A DNA stretch of 26,903 nt. Source: a virus. Numbering within the stretch: the first letter of the stretch is position 1; every line of letters starts with the position of its first letter. Both the position numbers and the translations under genes were made by a program. The notes under the pieces were generated by a model. That model worked only from the letters and a program-made list of their open reading frames with translations. It ran no database searches and was not told the DNA's origin. The stretch is from positions 1 through 26,903 of the IMG/VR virus record IMGVR_UViG_3300008267_000294. One strand, 5' to 3'. Shown one piece after another: positions 1-24,065 of the stretch.

Positions 1-2011
1 TTGCCTGTATTTGAAATTCATTGATACCGACCGTTCCTGTAACACTGAAATATGAGTTTACAACTTGACTTCCGCCAATGTAAACAATACTACCGTCATC
101 ATATATTTGACTATCTCCTAATCCAGTACTACCAGTCCATTTGGAAATTAAGTTAGTTGTTCCTCCACCAGAAACTGATTGTGGCAAATTTTGATATGTT
201 GTTGCCGATATAGTATTAGCACTTAATCCATTTGTAAAATCGGTTGGTCCAGTTACTGTACCACCTGTAAACGTGGAAGAAGGTAAATTATAATAAGTTG
301 TTGCTGATACCGTGGTTGCGGTTATTCCATTTGTATTTGCCGTAAACCCTTGTGTTGAAAATGTTGAACCTGAAATCAATCCATCAGCCCTTAAAAATGA
401 AGTAGTGGTTCCAACTGAATTTTGACCTTCTAAAAGTAGAGTCGACGAGTCAGGATTTCCTGTACCATTTTCGATAGATAAAGCACCTAAACCACTATTT
501 GTAACAATCTCAGGAGTTGAGGAATTATTATAAGCCTGTTGTAGTGTTGTGGTTGATATTCCTCCTGACGAACCTATAGTTTCACCAAATTTTGAAGTTA
601 ATAAAAACCTTGCTTGTGTAGTATCTGATAAATCAGTTGCTGTATGTCTTACAGATAAAATACCTATCAAAATTGCATTATCTCTAAAATTAGTAAAAGT
701 TAAAAAGTTCTCAGTATTTGCAGCAGCAATTGCTGAAGGTAAGTCAGAGTAAATTTGTTGTCCATATTGAACACGTATAGTACCAGTTTGAGTTAAAAAT
801 ATTCTTTGGTTTGTTGACCTATTTGTTCCTCCCCCAACTAAAGTAATAACACCTCCATTATCATAATTTGTTGGGTCGATTAGAGTAATATTTCCTGTTG
901 TCCCACCTGTTTGAGTTCTATATTGAAAAGTTACTGGAGATTGTCCACTAACTATTAATTCATTAGGTGTATATATATTACCTATGTAATTAATTCCAAG
1001 TCCGTATAAATTACCACTTGAAGTATTAAATTGTAGATTGGCTCCGTTTGTTGAAGGGTAAACTCCTGTATTTATTAAACCTATTGGAAAAAACATATCC
1101 CTCATTTGTGACAATGGGGATTGTATATAATCAGGTTCATTAAATGCTTGAATTAATGAAGTTCTATTAGCGTGACCTAATTTCCCTAAATATATATTTT
1201 GTCTTTGTTGTTGTGTTGTTGGGGAGGTGGATGACATTACTATTGTCCCTCCACTTGTTAATGACACATAGGTAATTGTTGAACTACTCAAATATGGTGT
1301 AGTTAAACCTGTTTGACCTGAATACTCAACATAAGTTATTGTTGGATTCATTACATCAGTTTCATTATCAACAATCCACCCTTTTACTGGAGATACACTA
1401 AATGTTGTAAGACTTGTTATTGTTATACCTGTGAAATAAAAAATACCCGTACTTAAATTATTAATAAACTGTTGTGTCCTATAATACTTTTTCCAAACAG
1501 CGTCTTGTCTACTAGTACCACTTACACCCTCAATTGTATTTCCTGTCCAAGCATTTATAAATGAAATATTTTCATTTGAGTCCGCTCTTACAACAGTTCC
1601 AAACTCATTAGTTACAACTGTTCCAGTGGATGCTGTGGCCGCCGACCACAAACTATCGTAGTTATTAATTAAAAACTGATATGTTTGGTCTGTCTCGTAT
1701 ACATATACAATCATACCAAGTTTTCTTCTACCTGATGAAATTAAATCAGAATTAAGATTTAATGTATTAAGTGAAAAAGTTGTCCCACTACCCTTTGAAA
1801 AACTTATTGGTATTGTATTTCCACTATATTGAATTAATCCGTAAGTATTTGAGGGTATTGTGTAATATAGGTCAGATAAATTATATACCTCCATATATCC
1901 TCCAACACCATATGTACTAAAGTGTGTTCCAAATAAAGTTGTGTTAAGTAGCGAAGGGGTACCTACAGATTGAATCGGACTTATTGGATTTTTATATGAA
2001 AGTTGTGGCAT
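1..2011 (-). CDS. Tail fibre protein, N-terminal 670 residues (3' end outside window)
   Basis: From the ATG at 2011 the frame stays open for 670 codons to the left edge, so the stop is outside the window. Residues 1-200 are an unassigned N-terminal region. Residues about 200-480 resemble a domain I know from tail fibres of Bacteroidota and marine phages, with stretches such as GLGINYIGNIYTPN, TFQYRTQTGGTTGN and LIDPTNYDNGGVITLVGGG. After that come Gly/Thr/Ser-rich beta-repeat segments, including two copies of an SATTYxNLP motif (near residues 569 and 602), then TNLISKWTGSTGLGDSQIYDDG-like sequence, often found in fibre shafts upstream of a C-terminal chaperone domain. There is no signal peptide. 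It is last in the visible operon, 9 bases after the 321-aa gene. Likely role: receptor-binding fibre or its shaft. Coding is certain; fibre assignment is good; which fibre it is cannot be told. Confidence 0.85.
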   Translation of the reverse strand, partial: MPQLSYKNPISPIQSVGTPSLLNTTLFGTHFSTYGVGGYMEVYNLSDLYYTIPSNTYGLIQYSGNTIPISFSKGSGTTFSLNTLNLNSDLISSGRRKLGMIVYVYETDQTYQFLINNYDSLWSAATASTGTVVTNEFGTVVRADSNENISFINAWTGNTIEGVSGTSRQDAVWKKYYRTQQFINNLSTGIFYFTGITITSLTTFSVSPVKGWIVDNETDVMNPTITYVEYSGQTGLTTPYLSSSTITYVSLTSGGTIVMSSTSPTTQQQRQNIYLGKLGHANRTSLIQAFNEPDYIQSPLSQMRDMFFPIGLINTGVYPSTNGANLQFNTSSGNLYGLGINYIGNIYTPNELIVSGQSPVTFQYRTQTGGTTGNITLIDPTNYDNGGVITLVGGGTNRSTNQRIFLTQTGTIRVQYGQQIYSDLPSAIAAANTENFLTFTNFRDNAILIGILSVRHTATDLSDTTQARFLLTSKFGETIGSSGGISTTTLQQAYNNSSTPEIVTNSGLGALSIENGTGNPDSSTLLLEGQNSVGTTTSFLRADGLISGSTFSTQGFTANTNGITATTVSATTYYNLPSSTFTGGTVTGPTDFTNGLSANTISATTYQNLPQSVSGGGTTNLISKWTGSTGLGDSQIYDDGSIVYIGGSQVVNSYFSVTGTVGINEFQIQA

Positions 2012-2989: not shown

Positions 2990-5725
2990 TTAATTTAATG
3001 TACATGTTGTTATTCCACTTATTGTAATTCCATATGAACTTCCTGAAACTGTAGGTATCCCACAGAAACATCCGTAAACCGCAGTATTGTTAGGTAAATC
3101 AAATGAAGTTGGTTGTCCAATATAAATTGGGGATATTTCTATTGTTGCAACATTTGGAGTTCTATTTGCCAAATAATAGTAATTTGGTATTGAACAATTA
3201 GTTGCAGGTTGTAAACTAATATTACAAGTAAATGCCGAAGTAACTCCTGTAATTGTACCTCCAAATTCTAAAGTATATCCTGAAAGTGTTGCGTTATCAA
3301 CAAATTGATTACCAAAATAAACAGTTCCAAATAAATCTGTAGTAACTGTATCTCCGGTTGTTAACCCACTTGATGTGCTAAATAACAATTGTGTTACAGG
3401 ATAACAATCAAGTACATTGTCAGTTGTATTATACATATAGAATGTAGAATAAATTGGTTGTAATGAAGAAGGAGTAATTGTTGGTGTAGGTGTGAGAGTT
3501 GGTGTTGGTGTTGTAGAAGGAGTAACACTTGGTGTTGGTGTTGGTGTAACACAAATTACTCCATTTATTGAATTACAAATAATTACATAGTCAATTATAA
3601 TTGTAAACGAAACACTTTCCCCCTTGTAACTTTCTACATTATTATTAACAGATGAAACTATGTTAATTATATTATTATTAACATCTATTGTACAACTATC
3701 AATGTTTGGAATTGATAATACCGATGTTTCTATAAATCCGGCGAAATAACTTAAATCAGGTATACTGTCAAAAGTTTGTGTGAAGTAGAATGGGAATTGG
3801 TACGGTGTCCCCCCTATTGTAATCCTTACTGAAAAAGTTGCACTACTTAACGAACAATTTTGGGAATTTTCAACTAAGTGAGTATAACCTGAAAACATTA
3901 AATTTTTTAAACTCTTTTTACCGGTCGGATTTACAGTGGGTGAACCAGAACTATATTTGAAACTATAACTTGTTGCAGAAATTTGATTACAACTGACCAC
4001 AGTAGAAACTACATTCGTACATCCTCCCTCCCCACTAACTGTCACAGAATAAGTTCCAGCCGTAAGGCCAGTCATATAAATACCTGTTTGACCATTGACA
4101 TTGTTACTCCAAATAAGATTAAACGGACCATCTTGACCGCTGATTAAAGCGGTTATTGTTCCTGAATTTCCATCAAAACAAGTTGTTGGGTATAATGTGA
4201 CTCTTAAAATATCCGATGTAGGTATATTAGCTCTTTTTGTAACAATACAATTATATCTATCAGTAACATTTATCGTATAATTTCCAGAAGTTAAATTAGA
4301 AAATGTATAACTTGTTCCTGTAGTGAACACACTTTGTTGTCCGGTAGATATCGAATACTGATATCCAGTCCCCGTAACTATTATATCTTTTAAACTTACA
4401 GTAATACTACCATTACTTGAGCCACAAGTAGTCGCACTTACAATTAAATCATAATCATAGTTCATTACTTTTTCCACAACAATCTGTTCGGTGTAAGTGC
4501 ATGAACTTAATGCATCTGTAACACTTAAAGTGTAAGTGTCAGCAAGTAACGATGAAAATGTTGTTTGAGTTAAAAACGAATTTTGGGTAAGAGTTCCTCC
4601 GCCTGTGCTTGTTAAAAGATACTGAAAAGGTGGAGTACCTCCTTGTATACTAGCACTTATTGAACCATAATTTGCACAAGTTTGATTACCGTGTGAAGTG
4701 GCAACAACACTTAAAGAATTTGCTGTTTGTAAAGTAACTGAAGCACTTGTCGTGCAAAGACCGGCATCGGTAACGTTTAATATATAATTACCTGATGTAA
4801 GTCCAGTAAAGGTGACTTGATTTGATAATAGTATCTGAGATTCTCCATTACTTAAAAGATAATAGTATGGGGCAGCACCTCCTGAGAAAATAAATGTAAT
4901 TTCTCCATTTGATGCAAAGCATGTTGGATTTGAAAAATTATAAGTAACTAACGATAGATTACTTGCAACTCCTACGGTTGCAAACTTCCTTACTTCACAA
5001 CCATAATAGTCTTTTACGGTACAAGAAAAATATCCTGGAGTTAATCCAGTCAAATAACTTTCGGTAATCCCATTTACATTATTAGTTCCACTCCAACTAT
5101 ACGTAAATGGAGGCGTTCCAGTCACGCCAGTAACATATAATCTTCCGTTGTTTGCAACACAAGCCGGACTATTAACAACGTAAAACCCAAAATTTAATGG
5201 AGTTGAGCCATGTACAACTACAGAATTACTCACACCTTCACATCCCCCGTAATCATAGACTTTAGAGTAATAAACTCCTTCAGAGATTGACGCAAAAAGA
5301 ATTGAATTAGTACTTGTTAATCCACTAGTAATTTGTGTATTTCCGCTGTAAACAATTATAGTATTGGGTCCATTGTTTTGTGTTGTAAAAGCCCTTAAAG
5401 ACCCATTTACTAAACCACACGTACTATCTTGTACTGTCTGTAAACTTATTCCACAACCTGTTGTAACAAAAATATTAACATCAACTCTTGTTTGATTTTG
5501 TGTTATTGAACTATCTGTCAAATAAAAACTATAACTCCCACCTGTCAAACCAGTTACAACATATGGGTTAGATATTATACCTGATGAGAATGAATTACCC
5601 GAAATAGGGTCAACCCAGTAAGCATAAACAGCACTTGCTGAAGCACTATAAGATAATGAAAAAGCCCCTGCTCCCGTATTACTACAGTCACCGGTTAAAT
5701 TATAACTATAAAAAATATTTGCCAT
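2990..5725 (-). CDS. SprB-like repeat protein, putative tail adhesin
   Basis: 911 aa, ATG start 3 bases after the 978-aa gene. Residues 1 to about 580 hold six clear and one divergent (N-terminal) repeat of roughly 80 residues. Each has a TC..NG entry, a G..PF.Y segment, then a closing F..LTSGNYTINVTD...C. This matches SprB repeats (PF13573), known from the gliding-motility adhesin SprB and other Bacteroidota surface proteins. The repeats beginning near residues 175 and 505 share an unusually similar WS..NNVNG..T.Y.TGLT core, suggesting internal duplication. Residues 581-720 are an unassigned beta-rich domain, 726-754 a Thr/Pro linker, and 755-911 a Cys-containing C-terminal domain. There is no signal peptide and no gliding or type IX sorting domain, which argues for a virion part rather than a secreted protein. 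Binding to a surface polymer is inferred. SprB identity is by eye; a general Ig-like fibre is the alternative. Confidence 0.8.
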   Translation of the reverse strand: MANIFYSYNLTGDCSNTGAGAFSLSYSASASAVYAYWVDPISGNSFSSGIISNPYVVTGLTGGSYSFYLTDSSITQNQTRVDVNIFVTTGCGISLQTVQDSTCGLVNGSLRAFTTQNNGPNTIIVYSGNTQITSGLTSTNSILFASISEGVYYSKVYDYGGCEGVSNSVVVHGSTPLNFGFYVVNSPACVANNGRLYVTGVTGTPPFTYSWSGTNNVNGITESYLTGLTPGYFSCTVKDYYGCEVRKFATVGVASNLSLVTYNFSNPTCFASNGEITFIFSGGAAPYYYLLSNGESQILLSNQVTFTGLTSGNYILNVTDAGLCTTSASVTLQTANSLSVVATSHGNQTCANYGSISASIQGGTPPFQYLLTSTGGGTLTQNSFLTQTTFSSLLADTYTLSVTDALSSCTYTEQIVVEKVMNYDYDLIVSATTCGSSNGSITVSLKDIIVTGTGYQYSISTGQQSVFTTGTSYTFSNLTSGNYTINVTDRYNCIVTKRANIPTSDILRVTLYPTTCFDGNSGTITALISGQDGPFNLIWSNNVNGQTGIYMTGLTAGTYSVTVSGEGGCTNVVSTVVSCNQISATSYSFKYSSGSPTVNPTGKKSLKNLMFSGYTHLVENSQNCSLSSATFSVRITIGGTPYQFPFYFTQTFDSIPDLSYFAGFIETSVLSIPNIDSCTIDVNNNIINIVSSVNNNVESYKGESVSFTIIIDYVIICNSINGVICVTPTPTPSVTPSTTPTPTLTPTPTITPSSLQPIYSTFYMYNTTDNVLDCYPVTQLLFSTSSGLTTGDTVTTDLFGTVYFGNQFVDNATLSGYTLEFGGTITGVTSAFTCNISLQPATNCSIPNYYYLANRTPNVATIEISPIYIGQPTSFDLPNNTAVYGCFCGIPTVSGSSYGITISGITTCTLN
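3464..3550 (-). repeat. Thr/Pro linker in the SprB-repeat protein
   Basis: Residues 726-754 are almost pure TP repeats broken by SV, ST, TL and TI. The coding DNA has a hexamer-like ACACCA/ACACCT period, so length change by slippage would keep the frame if it occurs in steps of one codon pair. Confidence 0.85.
3986..5450 (-). repeat. Six clear SprB-like protein repeats, about 80 codons each
   Basis: This covers the six better-conserved repeats (residues about 92-580) of the 911-aa protein. Conserved marks in each unit are an early Cys, an N-G pair, a G-x-P/Y pocket, a [LI]-T-x-G-x-Y turn and a closing Cys. They are repeated at protein level and diverged at DNA level, so this is an old amplification, not a recent tandem duplication. 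Confidence 0.7.
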
Positions 5726-5728
5726 ACG

Positions 5729-8665
5729 TTACAAACATGTGAAATTTACATTTTTATATTCCAAATTAAAATCAATGGATTCAATTATCGTACAATCCTC
5801 TGAAGTAATTGTAAGTTCATTAAATTCATAAGAAGCAGTTAAACCAACCCCTATTAACTCACCCATCAAATATGAAAGTCCCTGAACTATAAAGGTCGTC
5901 CATTGAGTCCCATTTATTACTTGGTTAGGGTATGAGTATACTTGTGGGTCAGTATAATCAAAAGTATATGTGACTCCATTTTTAACAACAACTAACTGAA
6001 ATCCATAATTCAAACTTTTAACTGTTGGACTCAACTTATTACAATCTATTGTTTTAGAAAGTGTCCCTAAATTAGATTGTATTACATTTCCATCATATTT
6101 TAATACTAAACTCATTAAAGACGCTGGACATCCCTGTGGTGCAAATCCTCCCAAAACTTGTGGACCTAATATTTGAACTTCAAGTGGGAGACATCCTCTT
6201 TGCATTCTGTAGGCAAATTTTTGTCTATGGAAAATAGAATTTTCAATTCTTGTACCTGTATTCCAAAGTGTGGTTGCAGGTATGAACTGTTCCACAAGTT
6301 TTATCCAAAAATTACCAATCCCATTTATATAATCAACCATTTTAGTGTAAGAAAATCCATCATTTTCAATTCCTACATTTTCTAAACTTTCTAAATACAT
6401 GTAAAAAATATTTTGTAAAAATGGGTATCCTCCTGTTTTTCCGTCGCTCGATATTTGTCTATTTCTAACATTTATCATATTTTTCCAAAAAGTTTCTTTG
6501 AACTCAAAAAAATCTTTTACTTGGGGCTTTGGGTCAATAATTGTACTATCAACATTATTTATTGGAAACGCAGTAATCAAACCATTATAAGGTATTGGAT
6601 AATCTTTGGTTTGGGAAAGGTACCAAACATCGTACACCAATCCTTGGGCTGGGTTTAGAAATAGGTCAACATTTTTAACATTCATAATTAACTTATCTTC
6701 CGTAACCTTATAAAAAGCATCGTAATTTCCGTCACTATTTTTTCTCAGGATATTTTGCGAATCAACCCAAGATTTTTTATTGTCTATGGTTTTTTGTAAA
6801 CCAAACCCCATTCCTAAGTATGGAAAATTTCTAAATCTATCTAAGTATTTTTCACCATAAGTAAAAGGTTCAAGTGAAGATTGAATAGTCGGACTATCCC
6901 CTGTATACACAGCGGTATTATAATCCAAGACTTCAGGAGACCTGTGTTGGGGAGTTGACTCATACCAACCTTCTCCTTTTTGGAAAAAGAAACCGTCATT
7001 ATTTACCGGAGCACTTGGGTATCCTTCTGAATCCACCGGATAGTCTTCTCTTGTGTATGTAACATCAACTGAAGTTTTAGAAACAGTGTATGCGGTGTAT
7101 GGTGCCCCATTAAATCTATATGTGTTGTTTGGGTCTAAAACTGCTAATTCTGAAGTGTAAGTACCTCCAGTTATGGAACTATAGAGTTGATTAAATCTAG
7201 ATAATTGTATTTTACCCCCTACAGTATAGACATATTCATTGAATTCTACTATAGCTTCGGGTGCCCCAATATTAGACATCAAAAATTCAATAGCCCTTCT
7301 TGTGCCTTTTGATTTAAAAAGATATGCTGAATTTAAAATTAAATTTCTATAATATTGGTATTGAATTTCATCCGTAGGCATTGAATTTGCCATTCCAGGG
7401 AATTGACTTTCACTGGTTTCATAAAGGGTTGATAAAAATGAATTACTTTGGATTGGTGAAATATTCGTATCCCACCCAAGTGTCTCTGCAAAATTTATCA
7501 ACAATTTAGATGGTACATCATTACCAACATTATAATTGACGGAAACCATATGAGATATTGAGTCGGCATATTTTTTTGTTTCGTCAAAACTTCTACCATA
7601 AATTTTAAAAGTTTTTTGAACTTTTTTGTCAAGTGTGTCAAACTCTTTTAAAGACTCAGTTGTATAAAATCTAGATATTAAATCAGTATCGTATTCATCA
7701 AACCTACTACCTATTTGTTCCAATTTTTGGATATAATTTGTAAACTGAGGGGTACGTATATCTATATTCCATACTCCGTCTAAAGGCCAAGTTAAAGTTT
7801 GTAATTTAATAAAATCATTACCGTCTTCCCCTTCTGTTAAAATTTGAAACTTTGAAGTATAGATAGGATATGAGAACCTGTTCAGTAATAGTTCTTCGAC
7901 CTCATCTAATTCCAAATTGAAGACTTCATTTACAGTATAATCATTAGGTCGTATTACTAATGTGTCGATAGTAGTTGTTGCTCCGCTGAAAATATCTCCT
8001 TTAACAACCAGATAAAGAGTTCCGGCACTTAATGAAGTAGTACCAGTCATATCTATAATTTTTGAGGAATTATTAGATGTGAATAACGAATAACTACTAA
8101 ACATCGATGTAAAGTTTCTATACCTTGATACATCGTACCCTAAAGAATTTATATTCCTTGTAGCATTTACAGTAAAATCAATTCCAAATGGATTTTTTAA
8201 TGTTTGAGCATTCAGGGACAAATATGTAATATCTTCTTGACTACTATAAGATATGTCAAATGCAGTATTACCTGTTGAGTAGTCTTGTCGTATCGCGGAA
8301 GATTCTATTGCACCTGGAAAAAAATTAATTATGTTTAAAACAGCCGCAGAAAATCTTTTAGATAAAGGTCCGTAAGAAACAAAATTTAAAACGTCTGTTT
8401 CATCAAAATTTGGATATATTCTAAAATTTACTTCATTAATTTTTTGAGCCTGTGCTACTGAATCAATATTTAAGTTATTAAGGGTAATTGGTCCTGAAAA
8501 AATTCCAGTGTCGAAAAATCTATTTGATTTCTCGTTAACTACCGTTGTGACTTGGAAATTACCTTGCGTTAATCCTCCTCCTTGGACTACTTGTAGTCCA
8601 ACTAAGTTTTCAAAATAAAAACCTTCAGAATTTCTCCTTTGTGGGGGACAACTGTAATTAGCCAT
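5729..8665 (-). CDS. Baseplate or tail wedge protein with a gpI-like segment
   Basis: 978 aa, ATG start one base after the preceding stop. Near residues 435-480 the sequence YRNLILNSAYLFKSKGTRRA followed by IEFLMSNIGAPEAI matches the pattern of contractile-tail wedge proteins of the P2 gpI type, where a 'GTR' helix leads to a short beta element. Residues 1-300 are beta-rich; about 300-440 are more helical and charged. A second conserved-looking stretch near the C-terminal third has FIPATTLWNTGTRIENSIFH and HRQKFAYRMQRGC, which I associate with phages of Bacteroidota. Residues about 815-978 form a Cys-containing terminal domain. Length is near that of T4 gp7, but I cannot show homology. It sits between the core baseplate genes and the adhesin genes, consistent with a wedge that docks fibres. 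Coding is certain, role moderate. Confidence 0.65.
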   Translation of the reverse strand: MANYSCPPQRRNSEGFYFENLVGLQVVQGGGLTQGNFQVTTVVNEKSNRFFDTGIFSGPITLNNLNIDSVAQAQKINEVNFRIYPNFDETDVLNFVSYGPLSKRFSAAVLNIINFFPGAIESSAIRQDYSTGNTAFDISYSSQEDITYLSLNAQTLKNPFGIDFTVNATRNINSLGYDVSRYRNFTSMFSSYSLFTSNNSSKIIDMTGTTSLSAGTLYLVVKGDIFSGATTTIDTLVIRPNDYTVNEVFNLELDEVEELLLNRFSYPIYTSKFQILTEGEDGNDFIKLQTLTWPLDGVWNIDIRTPQFTNYIQKLEQIGSRFDEYDTDLISRFYTTESLKEFDTLDKKVQKTFKIYGRSFDETKKYADSISHMVSVNYNVGNDVPSKLLINFAETLGWDTNISPIQSNSFLSTLYETSESQFPGMANSMPTDEIQYQYYRNLILNSAYLFKSKGTRRAIEFLMSNIGAPEAIVEFNEYVYTVGGKIQLSRFNQLYSSITGGTYTSELAVLDPNNTYRFNGAPYTAYTVSKTSVDVTYTREDYPVDSEGYPSAPVNNDGFFFQKGEGWYESTPQHRSPEVLDYNTAVYTGDSPTIQSSLEPFTYGEKYLDRFRNFPYLGMGFGLQKTIDNKKSWVDSQNILRKNSDGNYDAFYKVTEDKLIMNVKNVDLFLNPAQGLVYDVWYLSQTKDYPIPYNGLITAFPINNVDSTIIDPKPQVKDFFEFKETFWKNMINVRNRQISSDGKTGGYPFLQNIFYMYLESLENVGIENDGFSYTKMVDYINGIGNFWIKLVEQFIPATTLWNTGTRIENSIFHRQKFAYRMQRGCLPLEVQILGPQVLGGFAPQGCPASLMSLVLKYDGNVIQSNLGTLSKTIDCNKLSPTVKSLNYGFQLVVVKNGVTYTFDYTDPQVYSYPNQVINGTQWTTFIVQGLSYLMGELIGVGLTASYEFNELTITSEDCTIIESIDFNLEYKNVNFTCL

Positions 8666-8666
8666 T

Positions 8667-9578
8667 TTATCCTTGTGAAATTATATTTTGAAAATTTTTA
8701 CTGAAATCAATATTATCAATTCTATCTTGGCGAACCTCATAAAGAAGTTCATTGAATTGGTCTCTGATTACATATAAGTTATATTGTCTATAAATGTTAT
8801 TACTTGAATCGTAAATAGTATAGATACCGTCTTCAATTGACTTAGTTTGATTACCATAAAGCGCAATTGCAAGAGTAGAAGCATCATGTTCAACTATTTC
8901 AACTTCAACAACTGTTGGGTTAAAAAATGTATTTGTTAGTATAATATTTTGACTTGGGAAACCTATAAATGGTACTGCGTTTGGTTTTGTTGTTGGGGAT
9001 GATGATGGGGTTAATGTACAAAACATTAGGTTTGTTGTTCCATCTGCATACCTATATCTTATAGCCTTCTGTATTGTATTTGTTAAGTTTTGTGTTACAG
9101 GTTCACAATAAAAATTGGATGTTATTATTCTATAAAAGTTTGGAACTTTTGTTCCGTCAGAATTTAAATATTCAACTCTGAATCCAACAAGTCCTTGGTT
9201 TACAAATTTGTTTCTATAATTAGAAGGAACGTCTTGTAAATTTATAATAATACCCTTGATGTTTGGTGAGGACGAGAGTACTCCACAATCATTTATTATT
9301 GTTCTTATTTGAGCAGGTCTAAAATAGATAGTATATATACCAAGGGCATTGAACTCATTTGCTGGGAGTGTTAAATTATACAACCCTCCTAAAATTTCAA
9401 CATTTGTCCCTCCAATACTACCGTTATTATAGTACGGTCTCAGATATTGAAGTGAGTCTAATTTTGTAAGTGTGAAGTTAGTTGTTTCATCTCTTGATGG
9501 TACATAATGTAAAATTATCTCCACATCCTCGGGACTAACATCTGCGGGTCTAACTGTTCCGTAATTACCTGTAGCCAA
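8667..9578 (-). CDS. Structural protein of unknown function, TTG start
   Basis: 303 aa. The start codon is TTG at 9578, giving an N-terminus MATGNYG after TTG is read as Met; it follows an A-rich leader (ATATAAAAATAAA) as at the other starts, and no ATG occurs at this position. The stop TAA is one base before the next ATG. Residues 1-190 are beta-rich and include a segment on ranges and reaction to 'YRPAQIRTI'-like FRPAQIRTIINDCG. Residues about 187-200 form a short Ser/Thr/Pro hinge (TPSSSPTTKPN), and 200-303 a second domain ending in a mixed tail, DRIDNIDFSKNFQNIISQG. No signal peptide or membrane helix is present. I do not recognise the family. Tight coupling to both neighbours suggests a tail or baseplate component. 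Confidence 0.75.
   Translation of the reverse strand: MATGNYGTVRPADVSPEDVEIILHYVPSRDETTNFTLTKLDSLQYLRPYYNNGSIGGTNVEILGGLYNLTLPANEFNALGIYTIYFRPAQIRTIINDCGVLSSSPNIKGIIINLQDVPSNYRNKFVNQGLVGFRVEYLNSDGTKVPNFYRIITSNFYCEPVTQNLTNTIQKAIRYRYADGTTNLMFCTLTPSSSPTTKPNAVPFIGFPSQNIILTNTFFNPTVVEVEIVEHDASTLAIALYGNQTKSIEDGIYTIYDSSNNIYRQYNLYVIRDQFNELLYEVRQDRIDNIDFSKNFQNIISQG
8669..8674 (-). promoter_or_regulatory. Shine-Dalgarno-like site AAGGAT of the 978-aa gene
   Basis: The coding strand reads AAGGATAAAATG, with the purine motif overlapping the TAA stop of the 303-aa gene and lying three bases before the ATG at 8665. It is the only clear Shine-Dalgarno-like motif among the visible starts. It supports this start; the spacing is shorter than usual. 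Confidence 0.45.
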
Positions 9579-9602
9579 TTTATTTTTATATTTTAAATTT
9601 TA

Positions 9603-12164
9603 TTAAACTTGATTATATTTCTTAACATCAAAAAATCCATACCCATAAGATTCTAAAGCACCCGTATTATTAACTTCACCAATTCTTCTAAAGTTTTCTA
9701 ACCCAGAATACTTTCCTCTTTCAATAAATACATTTGATTGTATTTCCGGCTGCTCAATTACATTCATTAGATACTCAAACTTTGTAATTGTTGTAGCGGT
9801 AGTTGTGTAATCTGTTAAACCTTCGGATTCAACTACAAATATTGTTGTACCATTAGCAAAATCAATATACGTTTGTCCATTGATTACATACTCAATGTAT
9901 TCAGGGGTCTGTGAAACAACATACCCTGTTGTTCCATCCGGTAATGATATTTCTAAATCATTAATAAATGAGTTAGGACCATATACCGCAAGGTCATTTA
10001 GTTTAGATTCTGTAAAACCTGAAACAATAAATGGAACGCTAACGTAATCTAAACTTCTAGAATTAAAAGCATCATAAAATCCTCTTAAAGAACTATCCAC
10101 CGGAGTTGGGGTTGGGGTTGGTTCAGGTGGTGTAGTTGTTGGTCCAGGTGTTGTTGTAGTTACAGTTGATGTAATTGTTGGTGTTGGTCCAGGTGTTGTT
10201 GTAGTCACAGTTGTTGTAACTGTTGGTGTTGGTGGAGGTGGAGTTGGGGGTAATGTAGGGTTAATTGTTGTTGTAGGTGTGGCAGTTGGTGGTAAAATCG
10301 GAGGTTGGCAACCTGTAGAACTTAATAAACTATACCTAGTATTGGTACCAGGGCTAAGCAAAGTTCTAGCTCTAGCCACTTGACCTGGCGTAAACATGTA
10401 GTGGCAAGTGTCATACCCGTAATCCATGTAATTCATGTACATTTGTCCATTTGGCCCGTTACCACAAGATATTATCGTACCACATCCGTCAGTCGGTCCT
10501 TGCTGAGTTGGCGTGTCACTAACAAAGTCACTTCCACAATTCGCGTCACCCCAAATGTGACGAAGACCTAGCCAATGTCCTATTTCATGTGTTAAAGTTC
10601 TACCTCTTCCGTATTGACTTCCAAAACCACCTATAAGATTATTGCTACCTGCGGTACCCCAAGAAATCACAATACCGTCTTTATCGGGTGTAAGATAAGT
10701 TGGTCCTAAAGTGGCAAAACCAAGTAATCCTCCGCCAAGTCTCATAATATATATATTCAAATAACTTTCTCTTGGCCATATTTGTGACCCACCCAATGAA
10801 TCAAAAAAATTCCATCTGTCTTCGGGTCCTTCGTAATATGACCCATAAGGAATATATTTTCTTATAATTCCCGTTGTTGGTCTTCCGTCAGGGTCTTGGG
10901 TTGCTAAGCAAAACTGTATATTCATTGTACCAGCCGTAAAATACGGTGGAGTTAAGTTAATATCAGGATTTGTTCCACCAAAGTCCAAATTTATCTGTTC
11001 CAACTGAGCTAAAATATATGTATCACTAAGATTTGTGAAAACATCATTCCATAAAACATGAAATACTACAGGTATTGTAATTACCGGCGCATTATTTAGG
11101 ACAAGGGCTCTATTATTTTCAACAGAATTTGTTATAAATGATTCAAGTTCATTAAACTCTTTTAATAGACTTGGGTCGATTTGGCTAGGGTTAACTCCAC
11201 ATAGTGAGTTTGTGGGTGAAAAAAGTCCATTACTACCTACTCCATTATTGTTGGTTAGGCTTTTCAATCCAATATTTGAAGCAAAACTTACCTGCCCAAT
11301 GTTAGATATAAAGGCTTGTGTATAAGGAACTTCCACTTTTTTACTCACAGTATATGTTCCTAAAGTACTAGTACCACTAAAGGAAATAGTGTATTTTTGA
11401 GCAATGTCTAAACTACTATAAGTGTGGCAGAATTTCTGTGGAATGAAAACTTCAACTTGTTGAACTGGAGTCCCGTCACCCCAATCGACATAATATACGG
11501 CATTTTGGAAATAATTTAAATTATAATTTGAGGTATTATAAATACAATATTTAAAAGGTTCATCTAAATTTGACTCGAATGTAAAATTTACTTCCTCTGA
11601 AAATTGTGAGATATATCCGTCAAATTGAGAATAATATCCAATATCTTGGTAGTCTTGTTCTAATAATACAGGTATCGATAAATCTATGAGTTCGGAAGTA
11701 TTTGGTTGTACTATTTTTAAATCCACTGTTTCCCCGATTGGGATTGTTTCGGTAACATTATTTGGCGAAACAACAAAAGAAAATACATTAGTTCCATCAG
11801 GGTTTACACTTAATTGTGATTTTTGTGTCGTTTTAAACTCTAAAGTATTCCCTTGATTGTTTTTAACAAAAAAAGAAGAACCGACTACCACATCTTTGAA
11901 ATATCCATTCCAAATCTTATCATCTAAACCTTTATCATTTATCCAAATGACACTTGTATTAGGACCTAGTAATTGGGTTGTCGTGACACCGATACACCCT
12001 ACTCCAGGGAAATTTTGGACGTTCCAACTCCCCAAATCAATTGTTCCGGCCGACAATACATGAGATAATCCACTATAAAAACCGAGTGTTTGTCCACTAT
12101 ATTCAACTCTACTTAAATCTTCTTTGAGTACTTCTGGCGATATTTTTACTTTAAACTTTTTCAT
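9603..12164 (-). CDS. Virion protein with PKD-like and M43 metalloprotease domains
   Basis: 853 aa, ATG overlapping the previous TAA by one base (TAATG). Residues 1-200 are an unassigned beta-rich region. Residues 220-282 hold a PKD-like signature (DWGDGT, then CHTYSS and YTISFSG). Residues about 360-615 form a peptidase M43 (cytophagalysin/pappalysin) domain: zinc motif HEIGHWLGLRH (H526, H530, H536 ligands, E527 catalytic), a DFVSDTP segment at 546-552, and Met-turn NYMDY at 578-582, with several cysteines (543, 561, 567, 587) as in secreted members. Residues 620-690 are a Thr/Pro linker. Residues 691-853 form a C-terminal domain ending in VFIERGKYSGLENFRRIGEV and ESYGYGFFDVKKY, which looks like a conserved structural tail. 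There is no signal peptide, so the protease is probably delivered on the virion. Likely role: digestion of host surface protein during adsorption. Self-processing of the virion is an alternative. All catalytic residues appear intact. Confidence 0.88.
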   Translation of the reverse strand: MKKFKVKISPEVLKEDLSRVEYSGQTLGFYSGLSHVLSAGTIDLGSWNVQNFPGVGCIGVTTTQLLGPNTSVIWINDKGLDDKIWNGYFKDVVVGSSFFVKNNQGNTLEFKTTQKSQLSVNPDGTNVFSFVVSPNNVTETIPIGETVDLKIVQPNTSELIDLSIPVLLEQDYQDIGYYSQFDGYISQFSEEVNFTFESNLDEPFKYCIYNTSNYNLNYFQNAVYYVDWGDGTPVQQVEVFIPQKFCHTYSSLDIAQKYTISFSGTSTLGTYTVSKKVEVPYTQAFISNIGQVSFASNIGLKSLTNNNGVGSNGLFSPTNSLCGVNPSQIDPSLLKEFNELESFITNSVENNRALVLNNAPVITIPVVFHVLWNDVFTNLSDTYILAQLEQINLDFGGTNPDINLTPPYFTAGTMNIQFCLATQDPDGRPTTGIIRKYIPYGSYYEGPEDRWNFFDSLGGSQIWPRESYLNIYIMRLGGGLLGFATLGPTYLTPDKDGIVISWGTAGSNNLIGGFGSQYGRGRTLTHEIGHWLGLRHIWGDANCGSDFVSDTPTQQGPTDGCGTIISCGNGPNGQMYMNYMDYGYDTCHYMFTPGQVARARTLLSPGTNTRYSLLSSTGCQPPILPPTATPTTTINPTLPPTPPPPTPTVTTTVTTTTPGPTPTITSTVTTTTPGPTTTPPEPTPTPTPVDSSLRGFYDAFNSRSLDYVSVPFIVSGFTESKLNDLAVYGPNSFINDLEISLPDGTTGYVVSQTPEYIEYVINGQTYIDFANGTTIFVVESEGLTDYTTTATTITKFEYLMNVIEQPEIQSNVFIERGKYSGLENFRRIGEVNNTGALESYGYGFFDVKKYNQV
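10089..10307 (-). repeat. Thr/Pro linker in the metalloprotease protein
   Basis: Residues 620-692 are Pro, Thr and Val with a few Gly and Ser. It separates the M43 domain from the C-terminal structural domain and is the longest of the three linkers in the window. Confidence 0.85.
10141..10230 (-). repeat. Two tandem 45-base direct repeats in the linker
   Basis: Bases 10141-10185 and 10186-10230 differ at three positions. Each unit codes for 15 residues, TPT[IV]T[ST]TVTTTTPGP. The high DNA identity points to recent duplication or slippage. Confidence 0.85.
10557..10589 (-). other. Zinc-binding active site HEIGHWLGLRH (M43 metalloprotease)
   Basis: These eleven codons form the metzincin motif HExxHxxGxxH with all three histidines, the catalytic glutamate and the glycine turn present. 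The paired Met-turn lies about 44 residues downstream. Confidence 0.93.
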
Positions 12165-13237: not shown

Positions 13238-15002
13238 CTATCGTCGGTGTTTGAACAACTACAAAATTTTGAATATTTGTTCCTTCAGGAATAATCCTAA
13301 AAACAAAATTATCATATGGGTAATGTCTTCCATTAAAGAATGGAAAATTTACTCCATTCCCATCAGAGTCCACGTACCCATAAGGATAAATATCCCTCCA
13401 TAAAAACCTATTTAAATAGTTTGAAAAGTAAGCATAACTTGGTATTCCAACTGTTGTGGTTTTATCTCCTTCTTCAATATAATCTCCATAATCTTTTATC
13501 TTTAAAGAAAATAATGGTTTATAGTAATATCCCATAGGGTTTTCTAAACCTTCTCCAATATTAAAAACTGCAGGGTTAAATATAAATTTATGATAACAAT
13601 CCGAAATTACTGTTTCAGTTTGGGTTATATCATTCCATTCACATAAATCTCCATTTAATTTTTCTCCAGGTGTTAAATCATTATTATAGAAAAATTGTCT
13701 AGTTCCATTATTATAAGAACTTGTACCTATATTAGTATCTGAAAAAAAGTTTGACCTATTCCACCAAGAGGTACTTTGAGTGCCGAAATTAAACTCCCAA
13801 CCCTCTTTTAATGCATTTCCAGCCTGAGTCGGTGGGTTAAAATACCCAAAATAACCTCGGTTAATTACTGTAATAAATAATTCAGATATTGGTCTTCTTA
13901 AATTATCAATTAATCCATTAATGTCAATTGAGCCATTAAATGAAATATTATAGGATTGGGAATCCTCTTTTATAGAAATCCTAGATTTCTGATTGGGTGT
14001 TAAATCGGCCGACTCCCACCTTTTAACAGTTCTAAAAGCGGTTTGTTCAAAACCTGAATTTGTAACAATTGAATCTTGACTATTGGTTAATATCGTATGT
14101 TCCCTTACATAATATTTTGATTGGGACTCTTCAGGGTTATCAATATCTACAACTCTAAAGAACTGTCCTATTTTTCCGTCTTGAAAGGTAGATACATTTT
14201 TTGGAGTTCCTGGGTCAATAATATTAAATATCTTTTTTTCTGAGTCGTAAAATCCATTTCCAAGACTGTACACTTCAAAATAACCTCCCTTTGAAACGGG
14301 TAATCCTTCTCCCGTAATTATTGATACATTTGTTAAATACACATACTCACCGACTTGTAAATTGTGTTTCACAGGACAAGTGAATTGCCAAAAAGTTTTG
14401 CCGTCAATCGAAACTAAATTCATTATGTATGGCAACCCATAAAATGGCTGCCAATCAAAAATAGTCCCATCTGAGAATTCATATTGTAAATTTTTCAAAG
14501 GGTTGCTATAACTTGGGTAACTTATATAAAATCTCCAATTATAGTTTGTAACATCGCTCGGTAATCCAAGAATATGTCTGTCAACACCCGTAGTATATCC
14601 GTTCACTCCCATATCAGTTCTTATAAAGTTAAACTCATTATACTGAGGTAAACCAGGCCAAGCAAGTGTTACACTTGATTGTACTTGTAGTAACTTTATA
14701 GACTCGGGGTTAACATAATATAAATTATTATTAAACGGAGGGTAAGGATTATCAGGTGTTTGAGTAACTCCACTGTAATTGTTAGAAAATATCAATTGGA
14801 ATTTACATGACGGCTCAAAAAAAGTTGACTTCTGCCTTTCAATGTCATATACCTCGGCTAAATCAATAGTAATATTTCTCTGATACTCATCAAGTTCCTT
14901 TAATTTACCTGACAAAGGTGCGGTAATGTTTATAGGAACCTCTGGAGCCCTTTTATACCTAAGACTTCCTTTTACAAAAGTTATGTTACCTAAATCACTC
15001 AT
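13224..15002 (-). CDS. Structural protein of unknown function (592 aa)
   Basis: 592 aa, ATG at 15002 overlapping the end of the 2241-aa gene by 8 bases (ATGAGTGA). The sequence is rich in Tyr, Phe, Asn and Gly and looks beta-structured throughout, as in peripheral baseplate or fibre-dock proteins. The C-terminal part has a striking aromatic segment, FLWRDIYPYGYVDSDGNGV, then FFNGRHYPYDNFVFRIIPEG, which reads like a conserved core; I associate similar wording with other Bacteroidota phages but cannot name a family. Only about three cysteines are present, unlike the Cys-rich neighbours. No signal peptide or transmembrane helix. Role: unknown virion component, supported by position between the giant protein and the metalloprotease protein. 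Confidence 0.75.
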   Translation of the reverse strand: MSDLGNITFVKGSLRYKRAPEVPINITAPLSGKLKELDEYQRNITIDLAEVYDIERQKSTFFEPSCKFQLIFSNNYSGVTQTPDNPYPPFNNNLYYVNPESIKLLQVQSSVTLAWPGLPQYNEFNFIRTDMGVNGYTTGVDRHILGLPSDVTNYNWRFYISYPSYSNPLKNLQYEFSDGTIFDWQPFYGLPYIMNLVSIDGKTFWQFTCPVKHNLQVGEYVYLTNVSIITGEGLPVSKGGYFEVYSLGNGFYDSEKKIFNIIDPGTPKNVSTFQDGKIGQFFRVVDIDNPEESQSKYYVREHTILTNSQDSIVTNSGFEQTAFRTVKRWESADLTPNQKSRISIKEDSQSYNISFNGSIDINGLIDNLRRPISELFITVINRGYFGYFNPPTQAGNALKEGWEFNFGTQSTSWWNRSNFFSDTNIGTSSYNNGTRQFFYNNDLTPGEKLNGDLCEWNDITQTETVISDCYHKFIFNPAVFNIGEGLENPMGYYYKPLFSLKIKDYGDYIEEGDKTTTVGIPSYAYFSNYLNRFLWRDIYPYGYVDSDGNGVNFPFFNGRHYPYDNFVFRIIPEGTNIQNFVVVQTPTIDGCE

Positions 15003-18000
15003 ATACTATATTTGTGTCAACATATTTTTGTATAAATCTATCCATAGCACTTGCACCTTGTTTCAAACCAAAATAGAAATGAAATGGTGCTCCAAATGTA
15101 TATCTGAATCTTGCACTATCAGGTATTCTATTAACAGGAATTACAACTACATTACCGTCAGCATCTGTACCCGCACTATAATTAATTAAATATCCTTTAT
15201 AATAAAATGTATTGTTTAATCCTGGTGCAAAGTATTCTGATGTCAGTCCAAATCTATCTAAAGTTTGATATCCATGTGAGAAAAATCCATTTGGAAAAGT
15301 ACTACTATTAGTGTAAAGTCCAGAATTAAATTCAGTAATAAAGTTATTAGATTGGGTACCAAACAAACTTGGCGGTGAATCTAAATTATGGAATACATTC
15401 CATTGATAAAAAGGAACAACTTGTGTTTTAACTGTAATATCGGTAAAATCACCTGGCTGTGGCAATGTGCTAGCGGTAACGTTCCAAATTGTTCTTCTTG
15501 GTGAAATATAATCTCGCATTTGATTATCCCCACTAAAGAAAATACCAAAGTACGGATATGTCGGGGTAACTGTGTCTTCAGCAAAAATTAGGTCATTATT
15601 AGTATAATTTTCAGGTGAAAATTCATTAACACCAAATTCAGAGTTAATAGAAATTAGTTGACTGTAATCAGCATCAACAAGTCCTGGTAACAACCCACTT
15701 CCGAACAATTCTCCATTTTGCCATCTAGAGTTTTTGAAAAATGCTCCAACACTTGGGTCATCCCCACCTTGTTCATTTCCACTAGCATCAGGTAATGGGA
15801 ATAATTGTTGGATAAATGATGTGTTAACTAATCTACTTAAAATAAATAAATTAAGTATGTCAGTGACATCTTGAAAAGTTGTAGACGGTATTCTTGGTAT
15901 AATATATCCATCGTAATCATCCGAATAAACTATTTCTTGGATAAATGAAGTTTTTGGTCCCATGTCTATTATTGTAGTCGGGAACAATAGATTTCTAACA
16001 TTACCATATATTCGACTTTCGGATGAGGAATATCTTGGTCTTCCAATAAAATCGGTTCCATTCCAAGGACTTGAACGATAATAATAATTGTTTAGTGGGT
16101 CATGGAAATATATTGTATCTCTACAAAAAGCTCTTACGGGTTTGTTCTGAGAATTAAAAGTTGTTGCGTTTTGGAAAGGGAAGGCATATAATGTACCATT
16201 AATCCAGTTATTTGAGAACGTGTGTGAATACACATCAAAACAAAGTGAAAAAGTTAGTTTAAGTCTTTGAATCCATTCAACAACTGTTGCAAAGTCTGAA
16301 TATTTTTTCTGTGTTCCTCCTGGGTCAACAACACCGGCATCTGCAGGTACATCATGGAAAAATAAAGACCTTAAAGGTTTAGATACAATATTGTAACACC
16401 CTACTCCTCTAACAAACCATAACCAATCAGCACCACTTGCTGGTTCTGAACTATATCCATCTCCACCAGGTTGTATTTGTGGATTTTCATCAGCGTCAGT
16501 ATAGTAACTATTAAGGTCAACTGCTTTAGTACAATCTGTTAAAGATGCTGCAACATTACCTAACGGACTGTCGACACCTCCTAATATGTCGTAATCCAAA
16601 TCTGAGGTAAATTCAGGTGTCGGTAAATCTCCTCCTCCTTCTTGTTCAAATGTACAATCTCTATTAATTACGAATATAGAAAATCCACCATTTTGATGTA
16701 ACAAATACCCATTACCATTACCATCTGTTTGTACACTTGTTGATGAGGGTAATCTGTCAGTTCTCATAACTTGGTTAAACCTGTTACTCATTGTTACATA
16801 GTGGTTAGGATTAACATACCAAAGATTTTCGGGTATTCCTGGCGATGGTACATTAGGGAATACAGCGTAAACAGGTGAAATATATTGAGCGGTAAACCAA
16901 GTCCAATTTCTAACCTGAGTTGGGTGGTCGTTTTGTGAACCTTCACAATTTCCTCCCCCACTTAAATACGCACCACTAGGAGTAAACTGTATAGGTCCCC
17001 ATTGTGGACCATTAGCATTTGACCCCCCGTTCGGGTTTTCATATACACAATTTAAGTAAGTAGAATAAACTTTTTGCCATGTATCTTGATATCTTTCATA
17101 TTTATTTGCAAGAGCCGACCCTCCTTCAACATATTCTCTTCCCCAATATCCACCAACATTATTCCTATCAATGTTTCTTGGAGCACTGTGATAAGTTAAA
17201 TAATCATCATACAAATTTGCTCTATATCTACAACAACCTGGACATTCTGTATATCTTCCATTATCTGTAGAATCCCAACGGTTATCACTATCGCATACAT
17301 AATTTTGTCCGCCAGCTTCTTGGTCTTGCAAAGCGTCTCCACACACATAACTATTTTCGAATCCACCAGAGTCAGAAAGTCCTAGCGTGCTTCTTGAGCA
17401 AGGTATATAAAGGTGACTATCGGGTGAAGGAGCGGCTAAAGCCCCCATACTTCTGTAGTACCAATTATCAGGTGAAATTGTTAAGAAACTATAGGTCTCT
17501 TGTCCATATACTCCATCTTCCAAATTAAAACTTGCATTAGGTCTCCATCTTTCTCCATCAACCCAACCATACTGAATTGCCTCAGTATCTAAAGCCGAAT
17601 AGAAATTTGGCATTGTAGTATCATAACTAGTATAATTACTACCATACGTAAAAAATTGGCTTGGGAAATATATTTGTGGTTGTTCATTATTAATAATCAA
17701 ATGATGTTTTGGTAATCTTAGTCCGTTTGGATTATCCGTAACCCAAGATGGAGTATCAGCTAACAATGTTATATTTCCACTACTCAAATTTAAAAATCCT
17801 AACTCATATCTAATAGTGGGGTCAACTTCAAACCCGCTAACATTAAAGGTTTGGTCTATAGTGTTTTCTCCAATTGTTATAGGGAATGTGTTAACAACTA
17901 TTGAGGTTACTCCAGGAACATTATCAAGTTTTAAAAACAGTACCCGAAGTCCTTCTGGGTCATTCACTTCAGATTCAAATCTTAAGAATATTCTAATCCT

Positions 18001-21777: not shown

Positions 21778-23616
21778 TTACGAGAAGTTCACAGAGGACA
21801 TATTTTTAACTCTAATTATAATATCTTCTCCGGGTATTCTAACTTGATATATTTGAGTTGGTTCCGCAAATATTGTGTCATCAATTAATTCAATTTTTTT
21901 AGTTGTTACATCAGAATATTTTTGAGACGTTTCAGATGAAGAATATTGTCCACCAACTTTATTGTACACTGAAATATCTGATATTGTTACAACCCCATTT
22001 TCTGACTGTATAATTCTTCTTAATTCAGATATATTAACATTTTCACCCATTTCTCTATTAATAGGGCTCATAAAATCAGAAATTTTTACAATAACATTTG
22101 AAATTATTACCCCCTGATTTTGTGAAGCGTCCAAAACTAAAGATACATCAAAAGACAAATCTATTACATTTGCTGAAGTTACAAAAATATAATCATTAAT
22201 CATTCTATAGTTTGACAAATAGTTTGCGATATTTCTTTTTAAAGTGTCAGAAATTACAGGCACCAATTTTCCAGCACTATCATAAGATAATATATTAATT
22301 TTAATTTTGTTATCTTCTTCTGTAATAGCAACTTTAGCAGGTGCTCCGAATTGGGATGGCATTTTTCTTAATAATGACTCGTAATCATTAACTGTTACAG
22401 CTCTATTTTGGGCCGAAAAATTAAATGTTGTATAATATCTAACTTCTTCAGTTGTTGGGACTCCAGCCCCTCCAATTGCTGCGGTTATATTTGTACAACC
22501 TAATGAATTTATTACATTTGTATTTGTCGTTGTTGAGGGTCCATTTACATTAAAATTTACCGTACCAATTTGGTTAATTACATTAACACCGACATTTGTA
22601 CCTAAACCACCACCTATTCTATATTGAATAAAAAGAGTTGAATTTGATTTTAATGTCGACCCTAAAGAAAAATTATTTTGGTATTTTGAGAGGTCTAGTG
22701 GGGCTCCGTTTCTTGCAAAATCTCTTAAAAGTTCATCAGATGAAACATTACCTCCACCAAAAGTAAGTTTACAAAATCCTTCGGGGGTAAATTCACTAAT
22801 AAATCTACTATTTGTTTGAATATACCTACCAACTTTAATTCCAGGGGTATCAGAAGCCTTGGTTGGGTCTTCTACAAATATTCTATCTTCAGCAAGTGCT
22901 TGAACTTCATACCATCTATTTGTCGCCCCCAAAAATTCTTGGGTGGATGGTACATTTGTATATGTGGTTCCATCTTTAAGTAGAACACTAGTAACTCCTA
23001 AAACATTTTTTTCAGGTAAAAAAACTTCGTAGAAGGGTCTTGATTCCGCATCTCCAATACTTTTTCTAAATACTTTTGTTAATCCATTAACAACTGCCTC
23101 ACGTTTAACTATTGTGTAGTTAATTAATTGACTATTAGCATTAAAATTTGGAATTACTTTTCTATTCGGGAATCCGCTACTATTATAATTTGATGAAAAA
23201 TCAATGTCATCAGCAAGTTCAAAAACTTGTCCAGCACCAAGAACTTGGCTACCTCTTCTTAATATCCCACAATATCTCAAATCTTCTTTGTCTCCAAGAG
23301 CTGGAACAACAATAGAAAACTCACATAATGCAACCGAAGGTCTTTGACCTGGTATTTTTAACCCGTAAGTTCTTGCAATATTGTATATTGAAGACCTTTG
23401 TTGAGCATATTGAAGAACTGTTTCTTGTAAACTTCTATCAATATGGTAATGAAGATTATCGGTTACCGCAGCGTTCAAATCCATGAAAACACTGAATATC
23501 GCGGCGTCATTAAAATTTGTTACTAACTCAGGATAATAAGTTTTTGTGAAATTAATCAGCTCTTGTCTGATATTTTGAAAATCTCTTGTGGTATATGAAA
23601 TTTGCTTATTAGCCAT
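21778..23616 (-). CDS. gp6: Baseplate wedge protein, gp6/Baseplate_J-like
   Basis: 612 aa, ATG start 5 bases after the gp25-like gene. In contractile tails gp6-type proteins form the wedge ring around the hub that couples sheath contraction to baseplate opening. The N-terminus (residues 1-90) has the family pattern: YTTRDFQNIRQELINFTK, then FNDAAIFSVFMDLNAAVTDN and YHIDRSLQETVLQYAQQRSS leading to a YGL turn. The middle holds an FGGGNVSSD segment (286-294) and QYRIGGGLGTN. The C-terminal part has NRAVTVNDYESLL (404-416) followed by alternating strands and helices, the usual end of Baseplate_J proteins. Length is close to T4 gp6 (about 660). Adjacent gp25 supports the call. The start lies after an A-rich leader without a Shine-Dalgarno motif. 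Confidence 0.9.
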   Translation of the reverse strand: MANKQISYTTRDFQNIRQELINFTKTYYPELVTNFNDAAIFSVFMDLNAAVTDNLHYHIDRSLQETVLQYAQQRSSIYNIARTYGLKIPGQRPSVALCEFSIVVPALGDKEDLRYCGILRRGSQVLGAGQVFELADDIDFSSNYNSSGFPNRKVIPNFNANSQLINYTIVKREAVVNGLTKVFRKSIGDAESRPFYEVFLPEKNVLGVTSVLLKDGTTYTNVPSTQEFLGATNRWYEVQALAEDRIFVEDPTKASDTPGIKVGRYIQTNSRFISEFTPEGFCKLTFGGGNVSSDELLRDFARNGAPLDLSKYQNNFSLGSTLKSNSTLFIQYRIGGGLGTNVGVNVINQIGTVNFNVNGPSTTTNTNVINSLGCTNITAAIGGAGVPTTEEVRYYTTFNFSAQNRAVTVNDYESLLRKMPSQFGAPAKVAITEEDNKIKINILSYDSAGKLVPVISDTLKRNIANYLSNYRMINDYIFVTSANVIDLSFDVSLVLDASQNQGVIISNVIVKISDFMSPINREMGENVNISELRRIIQSENGVVTISDISVYNKVGGQYSSSETSQKYSDVTTKKIELIDDTIFAEPTQIYQVRIPGEDIIIRVKNMSSVNFS

Positions 23617-23621
23617 TTTTG

Positions 23622-24065
23622 TTATAAATTTATAATTATGAAGTCACTAGAATTAAATACATTACTAGTAATTGTGTAATCTATTTTTACTTTAGCTGTA
23701 TATTCTACTGAGGACCTTCCAGGCATTTCAAAAGTTTTAGTTTCATTAACTCCCCCAATCTCATCATCCGTTGCTGGATATACTGATATTTTATTAATCT
23801 GTAGATTTGGGATGTATATTCTAACCGAATCTCTTATCTCGGCCTCTATTTGATTAAACGTTGGCCCATCGAGAGGTTCAAATATAAATTCATATAAACG
23901 AGTCCCAAAATCAGGCATGAAATATCTTGAACCTTTTCTTGTCAATAAAAGATGAATTAAACTATTTCTAATCTCTTCATCTTCAAAATCGGAAAGGTCT
24001 AAATATTTTCCGTCAAATGAATCTCTAAAAGGAAACGTTACACCGTATGTTTTTCCATTTGCCAT
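23622..24065 (-). CDS. gp25: Baseplate wedge protein, gp25-like (GPW_gp25 family)
   Basis: 147 aa, ATG start, 17 bases after the 207-aa gene. Members of this family sit in the inner baseplate and help start sheath assembly. The diagnostic segment is GSRYFMPDFGTRLYEFIFEP at residues 45-64, with the P-x-F-G-x-x-L core and the FEP end. It is followed by an amphipathic helix (FNQIEAEIRDSVRIYIPNLQ) and a strand pair with a short insertion at about 100-118. Size is normal for the family (about 130-150). It is directly upstream of the gp6-like gene, a common pairing in phages and in contractile injection systems. Confidence 0.93.
   Translation of the reverse strand: MANGKTYGVTFPFRDSFDGKYLDLSDFEDEEIRNSLIHLLLTRKGSRYFMPDFGTRLYEFIFEPLDGPTFNQIEAEIRDSVRIYIPNLQINKISVYPATDDEIGGVNETKTFEMPGRSSVEYTAKVKIDYTITSNVFNSSDFIIINL

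Follow-up and report, generated by a model that had tools for sequence, protein, structure and literature searches.

The window analyzed here is the whole of a 26.9-kb stretch of viral DNA (26,903 nucleotides; IMG/VR virus record IMGVR_UViG_3300008267_000294). On its minus strand, an 853-amino-acid (aa) reading frame that starts at ATG lies within a cluster of tail genes (Table 1). Upstream are a gp25-like protein and a gp6/BaseplateJ-like protein, followed by proteins of 2241, 592, and 357 aa; downstream are the 303-aa, 978-aa, SprB-repeat, 321-aa, and tail fiber proteins. The gene had been predicted to sit among baseplate and adhesin genes, and this neighborhood agrees with that placement. 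By profile, the 978-aa protein resembles large proteins encoded close to gp6 in the Flavobacterium phage immuto and the Microcystis phage Mel-JY01 (E = 1.2e-5 and 1.9e-7, respectively). The 2241-aa protein (14995-21720), which adjoins gp6, has conserved ends and a middle that varies among relatives. Neighboring tail-cluster proteins (2021-2986 and 2990-5725) contain Pro/Thr linkers and SprB repeats, the latter being typical of gliding adhesins in Bacteroidota.

Table 1. Features of the tail-gene cluster, in window positions
Feature	Position	Strand	Evidence
gp25-like baseplate protein	23622..24065	-	blastp, 4.9e-12, to the phage immuto baseplate assembly protein
Baseplate wedge gp6/BaseplateJ-like protein	21778..23616	-	phrog_219, 2.4e-17; PF04865
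853-aa chimera: M43B zymogen cassette inserted into a conserved phage tail-cluster protein	9603..12164	-	ORF; both ends homologous to the 355-482-aa proteins of relatives, which lack the middle
N-terminal tail-cluster part, residues 1-290	11295..12164	-	51% by blastp to the 482-aa L095 protein (its residues 1-312)
Inserted cassette (residues ~305-696, approximate ends) with pro-segment, catalytic domain, and Pro/Thr linker	10077..11252	-	absent in L095/L090 and in 77/79 relatives
Pro-segment, residues 320-351, with predicted cysteine switch Cys322-Gly323	11112..11207	-	alignment and model
M43B catalytic domain, residues 352-619	10308..11111	-	phmmer, residues 361-611 to mirolysin
Zinc motif HEIGHWLGLRH, residues 526-536	10557..10589	-	
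Met-turn NYMDY, residues 578-582	10419..10433	-	S1' specificity residue Asp585 three residues beyond
Pro/Thr-rich linker, residues ~620-690	10095..10307	-	composition
C-terminal tail-cluster domain, residues 697-853	9606..10076	-	blastp
303-aa neighbor, highly conserved (69-93% in relatives)	8667..9578	-	
978-aa protein like large baseplate-cluster proteins of other myophages	5729..8665	-	profile similarity
911-aa SprB-repeat (adhesin-like) tail-cluster protein	2990..5725	-	PF13573, E = 1.1e-10
Tail fiber protein, incomplete at window edge	2..2011	-	phrog_16641, 2.6e-21

Relatives were retrieved through neighboring genes, and a gp6 search of viral contigs yielded 585 confirmed relatives. Gene order was the same in the relatives read in detail; in those without the insert, the protein encoded in place of the 853-aa gene (the slot) measured only 360-482 aa. 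These insert-free proteins match residues 1-304 and 697-853 of the window protein and nothing between. The cassette boundaries, taken from the gap between the homologous blocks, are approximate. A profile of the slot protein had no significant match among PDB sequences and found no counterpart in immuto, Mel-JY01, or LR756508. The family candidate PF22763 proved irrelevant.

The N terminus of the 853-aa protein is homologous to the phage tail-cluster protein, and hydropathy revealed no N-terminal hydrophobic stretch, consistent with the signal peptide having been called absent. In a structure model, the N-terminal part comprises a beta domain (residues 41-155, pLDDT ~90) and a PKD-like domain (residues 190-284), the latter with a fold match to a PKD-containing chain (Z = 8.8). 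The C-terminal domain is the best-conserved part of the protein (75% identity to L095 over 161 residues). From the full-length AlphaFold model, only the N1, PKD, and C domains were used; a shallow alignment left the protease part with low confidence, and the protease was modeled separately. Matches of the full-length model in a viral library included a PKD-domain caudoviral protein and a baseplate wedge-tail fiber connector; the superposition was poor, and we give these matches little weight. The beta domain (window 11700-12044) is missing from many 355-397-aa relatives. With both this domain and the cassette optional, the slot protein has two modular sites.

Sequence, fold, and zymogen design all place the inserted enzyme in peptidase family M43 and show it to be of the mirolysin/ulilysin type. 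The original prediction had described a complete zinc protease site, and the motif, the catalytic Glu527, and the Met-turn are all present as claimed. Motifs and matches together go far beyond a chance HExxH, and the M43 assignment of the 853-aa protein held in the HMM check (PF05572, E = 4.1e-13; 50-53 bits against a curated cutoff of 23, with 53 bits in the DNA search). Among PDB sequences, phmmer matched mirolysin (7.5e-55) and ulilysin (5.5e-51). Structure prediction gave the M43 fold as well: the AlphaFold model of residues 300-624 (pLDDT 84, pTM 0.86) superposed on promirolysin with Z = 37.2 and an rmsd of 2.1 over 290 residues, pro-segment included. Scores were lower for proulilysin (Z = 35.1), PAPP-A (Z about 20), and other metzincins (Z about 13).

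Residue conservation was read from 45 aligned M43 proteins, drawn from this phage group, from other viral contigs, and from Bacteroidota genomes. An earlier alignment, which combined full-length, slot-only, and M43-only proteins, was dropped because the protease was misaligned in it. Ten residues were invariant in 45/45 sequences: Cys322, His526, Glu527, His530, His536, Asp546, Thr551, Met580, Tyr582, and Cys587. Asp546 and Thr551 are residues of the double calcium site, and Cys543, Cys561, Cys567, and Cys587 correspond to the four cysteines that form the disulfides of mirolysin (pairs 543/567 and 561/587). In mirolysin, two disulfides and two calcium ions hold the domain, and Asp289 sets the preference for basic P1' residues (PMC6949598). 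The position of the equivalent Asp585 is Asp in 42 of the 45 proteins, and from this residue the window version is expected to prefer cutting before Arg or Lys. Two sister tail versions carry Gln (L189) and Ser (L192) instead, so this specificity would not be common to them and is not predicted for either. Catalytic competence of the M43B domain is a well-supported prediction.

The cassette also encodes a predicted means of silencing this enzyme. Promirolysin is kept silent by Cys23 of a Cys-Gly motif, which binds the zinc (Guevara et al. 2020, PMC6949598), and it is activated by autolysis at Ser54-Arg55 (PMC6949598). The protease model aligned with promirolysin and proulilysin from residue 321, which covers the Cys-Gly switch region; the codon of Cys322 lies at 11199-11201. 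On this evidence, the window protease is a zymogen with a predicted cysteine switch. Arg352 falls near the position of mirolysin Arg55, which makes Asn351|Arg352 a candidate activation site by analogy. The pro-segment is 5 residues shorter than that of promirolysin, and Ser320 replaces the Arg that fills the S1' pocket of promirolysin, two residues before the switch Cys. This Arg is present in 28/45 relatives, and we did not take it as defining, because many bacterial members vary there too. With a short pro-segment and without the S1'-filling Arg, latency could be weaker than in promirolysin. The original prediction, right about M43 identity, tail-cluster position, and the lack of a secretion signal, had missed the switch, the cassette and its linker, and the absence of the protease from most relatives.

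M43 proteins in other phage contigs fall into two kinds. Among other lineages of this phage group, G011 and G057 carry the protease module in the same slot. In G023/G024 and G049 (L192/L193 and L187), the slot protein lacks a protease, and the gene after the SprB-repeat protein encodes a 1131-1133-aa M43 protein with a pro-segment from the very start (switch Cys11), a catalytic domain, a Pro/Thr linker, and SprB repeats. M43 proteins without a signal peptide and with a Pro/Thr linker also occur in two large viral contigs (L208 and L211), on a separate deep branch. Contig L208 (323 kb) has tandem M43 genes (7905-9707 and 9797-11695), each with a Pro/Thr linker and fn3; the fn3 domain after the first matches minor tail proteins. 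L211:3844-10317 encodes an M43 protein of 2158 aa that also has an FGE-sulfatase-like domain. Signal peptides were called by a simple heuristic, the best 11-residue N-terminal hydropathy, which was 0.4-1.2 in 8/8 tail-type M43s versus 2.5-3.4 in 18 other phage-contig M43s. A Pro/Thr linker followed every tail-type M43 domain checked and none (0/18) of those with hydrophobic N termini. Two viral contigs of 137 and 172 kb (L188/L191) encode, at 7842-9806, an M43 protein with a signal-like N terminus, fn3, and a Por_Secre_tail domain for type IX secretion system (T9SS) sorting. No gp6 of this phage group was detectable in either contig, and the phages may export their own protease by the host T9SS. 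A 380-kb viral record (G110) encodes a signal-like M43 (L207) and two gp6-like baseplate genes (27326-29137 and 259107-260936), possibly reflecting two tail clusters or mixed assembly. The only match in the "phages" collection, MT837139, was a fragment with an actinobacterial-looking M43 for which no context was given, and it was set aside.

Since the tail-type proteins lack a signal and the 18 others have one by this measure, phages appear to export M43 proteases by two routes, through the host secretion system or, as we propose, on the particle itself. For the window, our main reading is a protease that the tail carries in self-latched form and that acts on proteins of the host surface; we assign this reading a probability of roughly 55%. 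An unlikely alternative is that the protease acts after lysis, shed or released to cut debris, vesicle proteins, or public proteins, thereby freeing virions or feeding other cells. Other phage-contig M43s do resemble ordinary secreted enzymes, one even bearing a T9SS domain, and mirolysin and ulilysin trim both of their termini (PMC6949598), such that C-terminal autolysis could undo a tether. However, the tail versions lack secretion signals and combine linkers with tail-cluster domains, a design that fits retention on the particle.

How often the protease occurs bears on a second alternative. Slot loci were fetched via the conserved 303-aa neighbor, and the slot protein was compared in 79 of them, some being near copies. 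In 77/79 it was 355-482 aa long and lacked HExxH; the remaining two (L110 and L112, from different metagenomes) encoded 846-aa proteins with the protease. Record-level M43 searches of relatives were positive in 3/48 and 1/50. The module is therefore rare, at about 3 of 80 slots, and infection in general does not need it. Slot proteins without the protease had no Pro/Thr linker either, so linker and protease travel together; in the window, residues 620-697 (78 residues) include 24 Pro and 30 Thr. Judged by the position of the block NPYG..F, the cassette of L092/L189 enters the protein ~25 residues further upstream than that of the window. No 16-mers were shared between the cassette linker and the linkers of neighboring genes; thus, we saw no DNA trace of recombination there.

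On the second alternative, the enzyme would be a maturation protease that processes its own or neighboring tail proteins during assembly, with no action on the host. Mirolysin-type zymogens self-process (PMC6949598), Arg352 stands at the expected junction, and a role in maturation has been suggested for several peptidases of jumbo phages (PMC7824862). Yet tail assembly must proceed independently of the protease in the 77 of 79 relatives that have the same tail genes without it. These include the closest insert-free relative, L095, whose 303-aa and 978-aa genes are 93% and 86% identical, respectively. The module also sits in a different tail gene, and we regard a role in maturation as quite unlikely.

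The history of the module was examined in a 35-row maximum-likelihood tree from which the longest branches were left out. The five tail versions of this phage group formed one clade (97/88), and the T9SS-type enzyme of L188/L191 was its nearest outgroup (98/93), among Bacteroidota sequences. The window, on a long branch, grouped with L187 (99/91), and L189/L190 grouped with L192. The tree thus intermingles slot and non-slot positions, as would arise had the module passed from one tail gene to another; an alternative tree with the slot versions together, in which the insertions of the window and L189/L190 could be one event, was not rejected (AU P = 0.064). A 110-row tree had set the window beside another long branch and was not retained, as dropping the long branches put the window in the tail clade. 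Between L189 and L190, dN/dS was 0.13 for the protease (21 nonsynonymous versus 42 synonymous changes) and 0.05 and 0.03 for the flanking tail domains. Judged by these ratios, the protease of this pair is under purifying selection that is somewhat weaker than that on the scaffold.

These data also bear on whether the fold is an inactive protease retained as a binding domain, which we consider very improbable. The slot protein and its neighbors are rich in adhesion-type domains (PKD and SprB), but every catalytic and zinc residue is retained in the aligned tail versions, as are the switch Cys and those calcium residues that were checked, and a dN/dS of 0.13 speaks against a pseudo-enzyme. A mis-joined contig is hardly credible: the exact window version comes from a single metagenomic contig and has a long branch in the tree, but its frame is unbroken across both junctions, its flanking gene order is the usual one, and the same architecture recurs in L110 and L112 from two other metagenomes.

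For the tail-borne, self-latched protease, the case for presence in virions is strong, although we infer it from synteny and homology: the cassette lies in a conserved tail-cluster protein that belongs to no family of known function, and the module recurs in tail genes without signal peptides. Its likely targets are host-surface proteins; the S-layer, gliding adhesins, and SusC/D-like proteins named in the original prediction are guesses at the actual substrate. The steps beyond a zymogen in a tail-cluster protein are ones that we infer as follows. Inside the cell, by analogy with promirolysin, the free thiol of Cys322 would plug the catalytic zinc and keep the protease silent while tails are assembled; the lack of a secretion signal, the reducing cytoplasm, and an intact thiol switch would together be well suited to latency at this stage. 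The particle would then carry the zymogen outside, into calcium and oxidizing conditions, where disulfides would form and, with Ca2+, autolysis at or near Asn351|Arg352 could free the active domain. The freed domain would stay tethered to the tail by the ~70-residue Pro/Thr linker, which would give it reach, and by the conserved C-terminal domain. On contact, it might trim host-surface proteins, preferably before Arg or Lys given Asp585 and the S1' pocket, with a benefit for adsorption, receptor access, or release from debris. We advance only tentatively, and as less probable than the main reading itself, the full version in which a cysteine-switch zymogen in the baseplate region is off during assembly, turns on outside or at the host surface, and cleaves surface proteins much as depolymerases do glycans, the module being portable between tail genes. 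The nearest cellular M43 sequences, the SprB repeats, and the baseplate likeness to Flavobacterium phage immuto suggest Bacteroidota as the host phylum. Large freshwater Bacteroidetes myophages exist (PMC9723584), and the phage in the window might belong to the same group.

The tail enzymes known so far have sugars, peptidoglycan, or polyglutamate as their main substrates. If tail-borne, a pappalysin zymogen would add protein barriers, such as adhesins and sorted surface proteins, to what tails can clear, and it would illustrate how a phage can hold a dangerous protease in check while its own particles are being assembled. Protease modules of this kind would moreover seem to move from one tail gene to another within a phage group that has hundreds of IMG/VR relatives. 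The consulted parts of a review of virion-associated enzymes cover glycan-active enzymes, a polyglutamate peptidase, and lipases, with no protein endopeptidase of the pappalysin kind (PMC5380687). A survey of 224 jumbo phages lists maturation, ClpP, SprT-like, and ArdC-like peptidases, and the word pappalysin is absent from it (PMC7824862). We found no report of a tail-embedded M43 protease or pappalysin in open-access PMC papers, which does not prove that none exists.

Among known systems, the closest are mirolysin and ulilysin, the unicellular pappalysins (MEROPS M43B). The window protein shares their fold (Z = 33-37), zinc motif, Met-turn, two disulfide pairs, calcium-site residues, short pro-segment with a Cys-Gly switch, and S1' Asp. 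It differs in lacking a secretion signal, a feature that is typical of the family and not defining and for which export on the particle would substitute, in lying between tail-cluster domains, and in having the Pro/Thr linker; in addition, Asp231 of the mirolysin zinc motif is Gly here. The secreted M43 of phage contigs L188/L191 would leave by a host secretion route, whereas the window version is part of a tail gene. In the BFVD viral structure library, the good M43 matches were from giant viruses; the ulilysin-like proteins of Tupanvirus and Yasminevirus have a predicted M43-like fold but belong to viruses of eukaryotes and have no tail context. The matrixin-family protein of Maribacter phage Colly_1 is a metzincin from a phage of a Bacteroidota host, but it is 199 aa long, belongs to another metzincin family, and gave a weak fold match. 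Like tail depolymerases, the window enzyme is a domain in a tail-cluster protein with a sporadic distribution between close relatives. In contrast to the depolymerases covered in the consulted parts of the review, which cut glycans, polyglutamate capsule, and lipids (PMC5380687), it is a protein endopeptidase zymogen. By position, it would work like a tail depolymerase, with protein in place of glycan as its likely substrate.
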